Assembly (NCBI GenBank): GCA_029862745.1
Contig: JAOTWS010000003.1
Location: 1 to 64,000, forward strand
Length of the DNA stretch: 64,000 bases
Reading direction: 5' to 3'
From: Nitrosopumilus sp.
GTDB taxonomy: Archaea; Thermoproteota; Nitrososphaeria; Nitrososphaerales; Nitrosopumilaceae
A program made the translations under genes and the position numbers. The notes beneath the pieces are model-generated. The model made no database searches. It was given only the letters and a program-made list of their open reading frames with translations, and was not told where the DNA came from. This document shows positions 36,863-42,184 of the stretch, in pieces. Positions within the stretch are counted from its first letter, which is position 1. Each line of letters opens with the position of its first letter.

Positions 36863-36890
36863 TTAGATTCTAAACTCCAACAAGCTTAAG
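36863..36890 (+). promoter_or_regulatory. Promoter cassette (a): palindrome plus TATA-like element
   Basis: TTAGATTCTAA at 36863-36873 (perfect inverted repeat around one base) is followed by CTTAAG at 36885-36890 and TTCATAATT. Apart from two or three bases the 43-bp block equals cassette (c). No start codon lies at the leaderless distance, so it may serve the zinc-ribbon gene at 36963 or be an orphan copy. Confidence 0.55.
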
Positions 36891-36962
36891 TTCATAATTT
36901 TTAAAAATTAAAAAATAAAAAACCAGTTAATTTAAGAGTCCCTATGAAATAGTTTTTCTATC

Positions 36963-37214
36963 TTGGTTCATTATTACATCAATAAAATAAAACGTGTAGC
37001 CCATAAACCTTCTAAATGTGTGAATTGTGATGGATCAGACATTAAAGATGATGCAGTTTTAGCTACAATTGGCCCTTCTGAAGCAAATGCAGATTATGTG
37101 CCTTCAATTCTATGTCTTTCTTGTGAAACTTTGATGATAATTACTACCCAATTAGAATTAGTGGTTGGAATCCATCATTCTGTAGGAAATCAGGTAACTA
37201 TGCGTAATTCTTAA
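36963..37214 (+). CDS. Small zinc-ribbon protein (83 aa)
   Basis: CxxC pairs in SKCVNCDGSD and ILCLSCETLMIITTQ mark a zinc ribbon. The start is TTG 36963; no better ATG exists. A TATA-like AATTTAAGAG lies about 25-30 bp upstream. The second knuckle resembles the product at 17355-17615. It is the first of a run of tiny CxxC/CxC proteins up to 37991. Function unknown. Confidence 0.55.
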   Translation: MVHYYINKIKRVAHKPSKCVNCDGSDIKDDAVLATIGPSEANADYVPSILCLSCETLMIITTQLELVVGIHHSVGNQVTMRNS

Positions 37215-37381
37215 AACAATAAAAATCAACTATATCTGAACTAGAAAAATATCTTGTATTTTTTGAAAATCGTAAAACAAAAAAAGAAAATCATGAGGAA
37301 GTGAATCGGTGTTCAAAATGCAATATACATTAATTCAGAATGGGTTTTTGGATTTTTATCAAAATTGCATTGTTTGGTAAA
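37215..37381. other. Short region with a possible gene tail
   Basis: A plus-strand frame without a start codon, open from about 37229 and closing at 37338 with EVNRCSKCNIH, looks like the C-terminal remnant of another CxxC protein. It lies between two members of the small-gene cluster. Confidence 0.3.
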
Positions 37382-37406
37382 TAGATTCTAAAACCATACA
37401 CTTAAG
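37382..37406 (+). promoter_or_regulatory. Promoter cassette (b)
   Basis: TAGATTCTA at 37382-37390 and CTTAAG at 37401-37406, followed by TTCATAGT. The centre of CTTAAG is 26 bp before the TTG start at 37430, the leaderless spacing. Confidence 0.6.
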
Positions 37407-37429
37407 TTCATAGTGTATTTCGAAACGTA

Positions 37430-37519
37430 TTGAAACTACCACAAAATGATAAAAAGGCAATAATTATCAGTTTATTGATGCTAATTGGGATTGGAATGTA
37501 CACATATTCAATTATATGA
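37430..37519 (+). CDS. 29-residue single-span membrane peptide
   Basis: TTG 37430 opens MKLPQNDKKAIIISLLMLIG followed by a short hydrophobic end (IGMYTYSII). One membrane helix fills most of the peptide. Support is its position exactly one promoter-spacing downstream of cassette (b). Function unknown; membrane regulator peptides of this size are known in other organisms. Confidence 0.45.
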   Translation: MKLPQNDKKAIIISLLMLIGIGMYTYSII

Positions 37520-37530
37520 AAAAATATTGA

Positions 37531-37558
37531 TTAGATTCTAAACTTCAACAAGCTTAAG
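37531..37558 (+). promoter_or_regulatory. Promoter cassette (c)
   Basis: TTAGATTCTAA at 37531-37541 and CTTAAG at 37553-37558. The centre of CTTAAG is 26 bp before ATG 37582. It is nearly identical to cassette (a) over some 43 bp, including the spacer. Confidence 0.65.
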
Positions 37559-37581
37559 TTCATAATTATCAGATTACAGTC

Positions 37582-37770
37582 ATGGTTGATTATGATCAGG
37601 AACCTGATAGATATGAAATAATATCGATTGAATCAGAAATTAGAGTGGGAGTTTTTCACAAAGTTGTTAAAGACTTGGAAACCGGAAAGGCTGTTTCTTG
37701 TTCTTGTAAATGTTGGAGTAAAGGAAACAAGCCTTGTTTTGGTATGAGAACTATTGGGTTTGATAGTTAA
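37582..37770 (+). CDS. Small CxC-motif protein (62 aa)
   Basis: The protein starts MVDYDQEPDRYEIISIESEI and has the cysteine cluster VSCSCKCWSKGNKPCFG (four Cys in 14 residues), a possible metal site. A leaderless start at ATG 37582 fits promoter cassette (c). The stop is immediately followed by cassette (d). No family recognised. Confidence 0.6.
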   Translation: MVDYDQEPDRYEIISIESEIRVGVFHKVVKDLETGKAVSCSCKCWSKGNKPCFGMRTIGFDS

Positions 37771-37810
37771 TAGATTCTAAATTCTTTTGAGAATAGACAA
37801 TACGCTTAAG
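37771..37810 (+). promoter_or_regulatory. Promoter cassette (d)
   Basis: TAGATTCTAA at 37771-37780 touches the preceding stop codon; CTTAAG is at 37805-37810, 13 bp further from the palindrome than in (a) and (c). The TATA-like centre is 26 bp before ATG 37833. Confidence 0.6.
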
Positions 37811-37832
37811 TTAACACAGAATTTAAAAAGAC

Positions 37833-37991
37833 ATGATTCCAAAAGGAGACATACCTGGTGTATGTGAAGATTGTGGGGAACGCATCACATATTCTAAAAA
37901 ATCTATACAAACTCATACAGAATTATTGAAAAAACATCGGTGTCCAAAGTGTGGGAATTTTGCATTGAAAACATTAAGTACTGGTTTGTGA
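37833..37991 (+). CDS. Small zinc-ribbon protein (52 aa)
   Basis: Starts MIPKGDIPGVCEDCGERITY, followed by a helical stretch and HRCPKCGNFALK: two CxxC knuckles 23 residues apart, a classic zinc ribbon. ATG 37833 is at leaderless distance from cassette (d). It closes the small-gene cluster. The function could be nucleic-acid or protein binding. Confidence 0.65.
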   Translation: MIPKGDIPGVCEDCGERITYSKKSIQTHTELLKKHRCPKCGNFALKTLSTGL

Positions 37992-41936: not shown

Positions 41937-41943
41937 CAATATT

Positions 41944-41949
41944 CTTAAG
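41944..41949 (+). promoter_or_regulatory. CTTAAG promoter copy (e)
   Basis: CTTAAGTTCAAAATTAT matches the core promoter of cassettes (a)-(d) but lacks the upstream palindrome. Its centre is 26 bp before ATG 41972. Confidence 0.55.
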
Positions 41950-41971
41950 TTCAAAATTATGAATAAAAATA

Positions 41972-42184
41972 ATGGATATTTACTCCAGTAAATTTGCAAT
42001 AATTTTGATAATTATATTAGCAGGGATTTTTGGATTACAATTGATGAATAACAATGACAACAATAGTACATTAATTGATGCTGAAACATGCGAATTATAC
42101 ATTATAGATTCTCAGATTAATGCCAAACAGTATCTTAATGAATTTGATTCAAAATGTATTGAATTTAAAAACTTAAATCCATAA
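41972..42184 (+). CDS. Small membrane-anchored protein (70 aa)
   Basis: One N-terminal membrane helix (FAIILIIILAGIFGLQLM) and an Asn/Asp-rich outside part with two cysteines (ETCELYIIDSQ, DSKCIEFK) that could form a disulfide. Leaderless start from the CTTAAG promoter. No family recognised. Confidence 0.6.
   Translation: MDIYSSKFAIILIIILAGIFGLQLMNNNDNNSTLIDAETCELYIIDSQINAKQYLNEFDSKCIEFKNLNP

Follow-up and report, generated by a model that had tools for sequence, protein, structure and literature searches.

Organization of the locus

The window analysed here is a stretch of Nitrosopumilus sp. DNA of 64,000 nucleotides (contig C3, positions 1–64000) from a 1.81 Mb genome assembled in 17 contigs. 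It contains five copies of a promoter core, four of them clustered within 1 kb and preceded by an upstream box, together with a series of very short genes. The features are as follows.

36863–36873, + strand: upstream palindromic box TTAGATTCTAA, copy a (from the sequence)
36878–36892, + strand: promoter core CAACAAGCTTAAGTT, copy a (match to sequence model R1, E = 6.9e-6); no ORF at +26; perhaps a promoter left orphan, a non-coding transcript or a decayed gene
37381–37391, + strand: upstream box ATAGATTCTAA, copy b (from the sequence)
37394–37408, + strand: promoter core CCATACACTTAAGTT, copy b (model match, E = 5.8e-4); CTTAAG centre 26 bp before a start codon
37430–37519, + strand: 29-residue peptide MKLPQNDKKAIIISLLMLIGIGMYTYSII with a single transmembrane (TM) segment and a TTG start
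37531–37541, + strand: upstream palindromic box TTAGATTCTAA, copy c (from the sequence)
37546–37560, + strand: promoter core CAACAAGCTTAAGTT, copy c (model match, E = 1.5e-6)
37582–37770, + strand: 62-residue CxCxC protein
37770–37780, + strand: upstream box ATAGATTCTAA, copy d, long-spacer form
37781–37797, + strand: long spacer ATTCTTTTGAGAATAGA, 13 bp longer than the short form and recurring in relatives
37798–37812, + strand: promoter core CAATACGCTTAAGTT, copy d, exact consensus (model match, E = 1.7e-6)
37833–37991, + strand: 52-residue zinc-ribbon protein, with close orthologues in 12 other genomes
41937–41951, + strand: fifth promoter core CAATATTCTTAAGTT, without palindrome (model match, E = 6.9e-4)
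41972–42184, + strand: 70-residue protein with an N-terminal TM segment; relatives in two genomes have the same promoter

An earlier note on this DNA had described four cassettes, in which TAGATTCTAA is followed by CTTAAG, within 1 kb, and all four are present, with TAGATTCTAA at positions 36864, 37382, 37532 and 37771 and CTTAAG at 36885, 37401, 37553 and 37805. The full palindrome TTAGATTCTAA is found at only two of these four cassettes (36863 and 37531). The arrangement TAGATTCTAA-N4-30-CTTAAG, which occurs four times in the window, appeared in none of 300 first-order Markov resamplings, and a search of the remainder of the 1.81 Mb genome returned no further instance. Two details of the original description require adjustment: the CTTAAG centre, thought to lie exactly 26 bp before three start codons, lies at that distance from two of them (26 and 26 bp) and 25 bp from the third, and the cassette suffix, given as the same in four copies, has TTA and not TTC in the fourth, which reads CTTAAGTTA. 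The 29-residue peptide belongs to a family of four whose relatives elsewhere are under the same promoter, and orthologues of the 62-residue protein in four other genomes are likewise located behind it. Copy a is possibly the leader to an 83-residue CxxC ORF at 36963, which has a TTTAAG box of its own.

Conservation and position of the core

The element conserved across Nitrosopumilus is a core of 15–17 bp, CAATACGCTTAAGTTCA, at the BRE/TATA position, within which CAATACGCTTAAGTT is invariant. A 15-mer search with at most one mismatch located 287 sites against six for the reversed control, distributed over 75 of the 95 genomes of the genus, and a 29-mer search of the same 95 genomes with at most three mismatches gave 70 sites and none for the control. 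Both counts are genome-wide and free of locus-selection bias. Many of the 29-mer matches have an altered left palindrome arm with CAATACGCTTAAGTT intact. The complete palindrome-plus-core cassette was matched 64 times over 200 genomes, against 16 matches for the reversed control. In a separate scan for the palindrome pattern, the named carriers among the matches listed, which include chance bacterial ones, are mostly Nitrosopumilus. Some genomes hold at least 23 sites. In three sister genera, many genomes contain several sites, up to 12, and the count is zero or one in most other genera; these counts too are genome-wide and free of locus-selection bias. Some site-poor genomes are probably GC-richer, which lowers motif detection, and sites in such genomes may have been overlooked. 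A viral or mobile origin was also considered; the 12 matches on viral contigs included none with a promoter context.

The position profile, calculated from 843 kb of loci picked because they held matches, displays 1.1–2.5 bits at every position of the core, 0.2–0.6 bits for TTCTAAAC upstream and values near zero beyond, with signal again up to the start codon. Among the sites with at most one mismatch in these picked loci, the distance from the CTTAAG centre to the start codon is 26 bp in 49 cases, 25 bp in nine and 27 bp in four. Genes encoding 150 residues or more have ordinary TATA-like boxes whose positions also peak 24–27 bp before the start, so the core occupies the TATA position. The CTTAAG centre at 25–27 bp is in agreement with an archaeal BRE/TATA element located about 26 bp ahead of a leaderless start codon, and from this spacing transcription most likely begins at or near the codon. 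The promoters of larger genes mainly contain TTTAAA- or TTTATA-like boxes. Among close orthologues of the zinc-ribbon gene at 37833, CTTAAG is located exactly 25 bp before the ATG in all 13 readable cases, with sequence farther upstream having diverged.

The upstream box

The earlier note had taken the palindrome to be the common regulatory site, and had called for a genome-wide search. Alone, TTAGANTCTAA shows no enrichment in the genome, with 13 sites versus nine for the reversed pattern. Exact TTCTAAA is present within 35 bp upstream of 46 of 120 cores, compared with seven and zero in two distal control stretches, although this fraction is inflated because the loci had been picked partly with the palindrome. 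The spacings between TTCTAAA and the core are discrete (7–8, 10, 12–13 and 23 bases). Where the right arm is present, the left arm, TAGA, shows moderate conservation and is the weaker of the two. When the promoters of our own genome are found with the core model, the box is associated with five of about 18 of them, and in orthologous promoters that retain the core it is usually absent. The palindrome is thus not at every member of the set, and given the variable upstream sequence of the orthologues, the TTAGATTCTAA box is a genuine but optional upstream element and not the defining site.

The 13 bp longer spacer CTCTTTTGAGAATAGA occurs in the window (37770–37797) and again in L205, L210, L217 and L236. 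It resembles extra half-sites (TTAGA, TGAGA or ATAGA), and orthologous genes alternate between short- and long-spacer forms.

Genes downstream of the core

A sequence model of 51 positions was used to search our own genome, in which it identified 17 promoters with E values up to 0.07 and one more, with a fitting start, at 0.58. A gap in E value separates the promoters with a start at 23–28 bp from chance matches. The total is about 18 core promoters, five of them inside the window, and all except the orphan copy a have a start codon 23–28 bp after the CTTAAG centre. Their products are 29–241 residues in length; where the ORF is clear they are all small proteins, for the most part without annotation, and none comes from a housekeeping gene. 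In relatives, 112 downstream ORFs fall into 55 unrelated sequence families with a median length of about 64 residues, although some ORFs of fewer than 40 residues may not be translated. Zinc ribbons, single-TM peptides and charged coiled peptides are the recurring kinds of product. The original theme of tiny cysteine proteins applies to part of this set, as 21 of 105 products contain at least two CxxC motifs; 28 of the 105 appear to be membrane-spanning. Scans of 36 representatives against Pfam, PHROG and NCBIfam returned few matches, namely zinc ribbons, DUF1059, one KAP ATPase and one protein matching a phage homing-endonuclease family. In L205 (4426), a core promoter precedes a KAP-family ATPase of 402 residues that resembles QatA, a component of the anti-phage system Qat.

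Sharing of a conserved core by many unrelated small genes (55 families), with retention in all 13 readable zinc-ribbon orthologues, makes the set a genuine candidate regulon. The proposal in the earlier note of a cis element shared by unrelated miniproteins at a fixed distance from the start is supported, the element is conserved in relatives, and the sequence data are consistent with its suggestion of an undescribed regulon with leaderless transcription, albeit for a larger set of genes than had been claimed.

TFB paralogues as candidate readers

Two TFB paralogues co-occur with the promoter.

G000, contig C5, 168774–169706: TFB A1
G000, contig C1, 198393–199316: TFB A2

A tree built with the 70 TFBs of nine genomes places A1 and A2 in sister clades, which are represented in all five site-rich genomes and in none of the four site-poor ones. 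The site-poor G033 and G078 adjoin our own genome in several other TFB clades; they are therefore not simply outgroups, and the absence of A1 and A2 from them looks like loss. Across 72 genomes that are at least 85% complete, those with both A1 and A2 have a median of 12 sites (n = 35), those with an A2-like protein of 76–83% identity a median of eight (n = 8) and those with none of the three between zero and five sites, with a median of one (n = 13). Site number differs between genomes with A1 or A2 and those with neither at p = 8e-6, a statistic that ignores phylogeny. It is correlated with TFB copy number (rho = 0.52, a value that likewise ignores kinship) and TBP copy number (0.43) but not with genome size (0.20, p = 0.10); further accessory genes might follow it just as closely. 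Exceptions run both ways; among them, G068 has A1 and zero sites, and G086, G006, G023, G048 and G009 have both TFBs and only one to three sites.

The BRE-recognition helix VTEVTIRNRYKGL has the same sequence in A1, A2 and a universal paralogue, and no distinct DNA-contact residues were found in it; an altered reading of the BRE is therefore not evident. The core is absent from the A1 and A2 genes themselves. TFB genes were also considered as neighbours of the promoter clusters, and only two of the examined loci contain one. As a separate observation, PF00352 matches suggest that most Nitrosopumilus genomes have 2–5 TBP genes, whereas a published report credits ammonia-oxidizing archaea (AOA) with only one TBP (PMC12448741).

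Discussion

The arrangement is best explained by a dedicated Nitrosopumilus promoter class with an extended BRE + TATA core, (T)CAATACG-CTTAAG-TTCA, placed some 26 bp ahead of the start codon, and that such a class exists as an entity we consider highly probable. Transcription from it would most likely be leaderless, beginning at the start codon or within 1–2 bases of it. Each small-protein gene would have its own promoter within a patchy, mostly unannotated regulon, and control of this type is probable. An optional activator-type box, TTAGATTCTAAAC, lies upstream at a few fixed spacings, where a second factor would most likely bind and strengthen or condition recruitment. The core itself would most likely be selected by a specialized general transcription factor, TFB A1, A2 or both; this step, which the co-occurrence suggests, is the weakest and remains tentative, somewhat short of an even chance, owing to the exceptions, the uncorrected shared ancestry and the ordinary recognition helix. 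Taken as a whole, the reading that joins class, regulon and TFB selection is about evenly balanced between right and wrong. Slightly more speculative than the TFB step is the idea that A1 and A2 might act like sigma factors for one promoter class and switch on a programme, specific to this lineage, that comprises dozens of orphan micro-proteins, a subset of which the palindromic box would tune.

The same promoter class could instead be read by a sequence-specific regulator overlapping the BRE/TATA region, with no special TFB involved. Spanning about 15–17 bp, the core exceeds a usual BRE/TATA element in length and strictness, and the candidate TFBs have an ordinary DNA-reading helix, both of which would fit such a protein. 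The core coincides exactly with the TFB/TBP footprint, however, no regulator gene of this kind is under the promoter in our own genome and ribbon-helix-helix proteins are under it in only two others, leaving this explanation unlikely. We regard as quite improbable the earlier reading, in which one regulator binds the TTAGATTCTAA palindrome and CTTAAG is merely a TATA box: the cassette does recur across the genus in both the 200-genome and the 29-mer searches and the box is enriched upstream of cores, but most of our own promoters lack it, the core persists in orthologues from which it is missing, its conservation (above all that of its left arm) is below that of the core and the genome as a whole is not enriched in the palindrome by itself.

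A constitutive core promoter of high strength, under no specific control and by chance common before recently acquired small genes, would account for the lack of a known trigger and for the many patchy accessory proteins among the products. It accords poorly with the restriction of the core in our own genome to small, mostly unannotated proteins, to the exclusion of housekeeping genes, and with the different boxes of larger genes, and we consider it improbable. An origin of the cassettes from a mobile or duplicated unit of promoter plus gene, as opposed to convergence of regulatory sites, is suggested by G045, in which two copies 370 bp apart have 15 further upstream bases in common; some neighbours are identical beyond the core and clusters do occur. 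Conserved ends or enclosing repeats were not found, similarity extends no farther than the box on one side and the start codon on the other, the downstream genes belong to 55 families and none of the 12 matches on viral contigs is a promoter-like copy, so that this origin is very improbable indeed. The preferred explanation is still a dedicated promoter class driving a regulon and possibly read by A1 or A2.

Nitrosopumilus species are among the commonest marine ammonia oxidizers; to our knowledge, little is known of their gene regulation and most of their small genes are unannotated. With a precise promoter signature, dozens of orphan micro-proteins can be tested as a single regulon; the signature also serves as a tool for finding genuine small genes and gives the expanded TFB set of these archaea a concrete, falsifiable target. 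If the sigma-like reading is true, this would be the first programme of its kind in ammonia-oxidizing archaea to be linked with a precise promoter sequence. A search of one literature library for Nitrosopumilus promoter motifs and start-site maps yielded no account of the motif, and the promoter sequence is apparently undescribed so far. G078, which we take to be N. maritimus SCM1, has eight TFBs, lacks A1 and A2 and is nearly without the promoter; the class may have been overlooked because the presumed N. maritimus has almost none of it. Eight TFBs are also given for N. maritimus in the accessible part of a study of AOA biofilms (PMC12448741). That part describes TFB switching, evidence that TFB paralogues serve archaea of the Nitrosopumilus type as global regulators; it concerns N. 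maritimus and does not mention a promoter motif.

Archaea can pair TFB paralogues with promoter classes, as is illustrated by Halobacterium and Sulfolobus (PMC2121645, PMC5817253). Halobacterium NRC-1 similarly has expanded TBP and TFB paralogues, a subset of which (TbpD/TfbA) controls a gene set (PMC2121645); the evidence there came from knock-outs and the set exceeds 10% of genes, whereas the Nitrosopumilus class has a precise, strongly conserved core, a small-protein set and a correlation only. The UV-inducible promoters of Sulfolobus share a short regulon-wide box, A(N)TTTC, adjoining the BRE/TATA region upstream, and a proposed link to a TFB paralogue, TFB3 (PMC5817253). Their box is non-palindromic, lies at -44 to -39 and accompanies a weak BRE, whereas in Nitrosopumilus it is the BRE/TATA element itself that is invariant, preceded by a palindromic box that is optional. 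A DNA-binding domain is missing from TFB3, but A1 and A2 are full-length proteins. Haloferax also has many tiny zinc-ribbon proteins, one-domain zinc-finger micro-proteins of which several are implicated in stress adaptation (PMC6562870, PMC11241148); they belong to other families and another lineage, and the abstracts of these reports describe no shared promoter.

Other upstream patterns

Paralogues of the window zinc ribbon, of the MKGDLPG type (L376, L383, L385 and L386), share a different upstream sequence, TTATTTGTACTAGTATTTCACAATTAAT, which, in its position before the start codon, is possibly a second shared promoter class. Zinc ribbons of the MLPKGD/MIPKGN type, another paralogue group (L372, L373 and L381, in G009, G007 and G026), display a third pattern, TTAGaCTC...GGATTATATTT.
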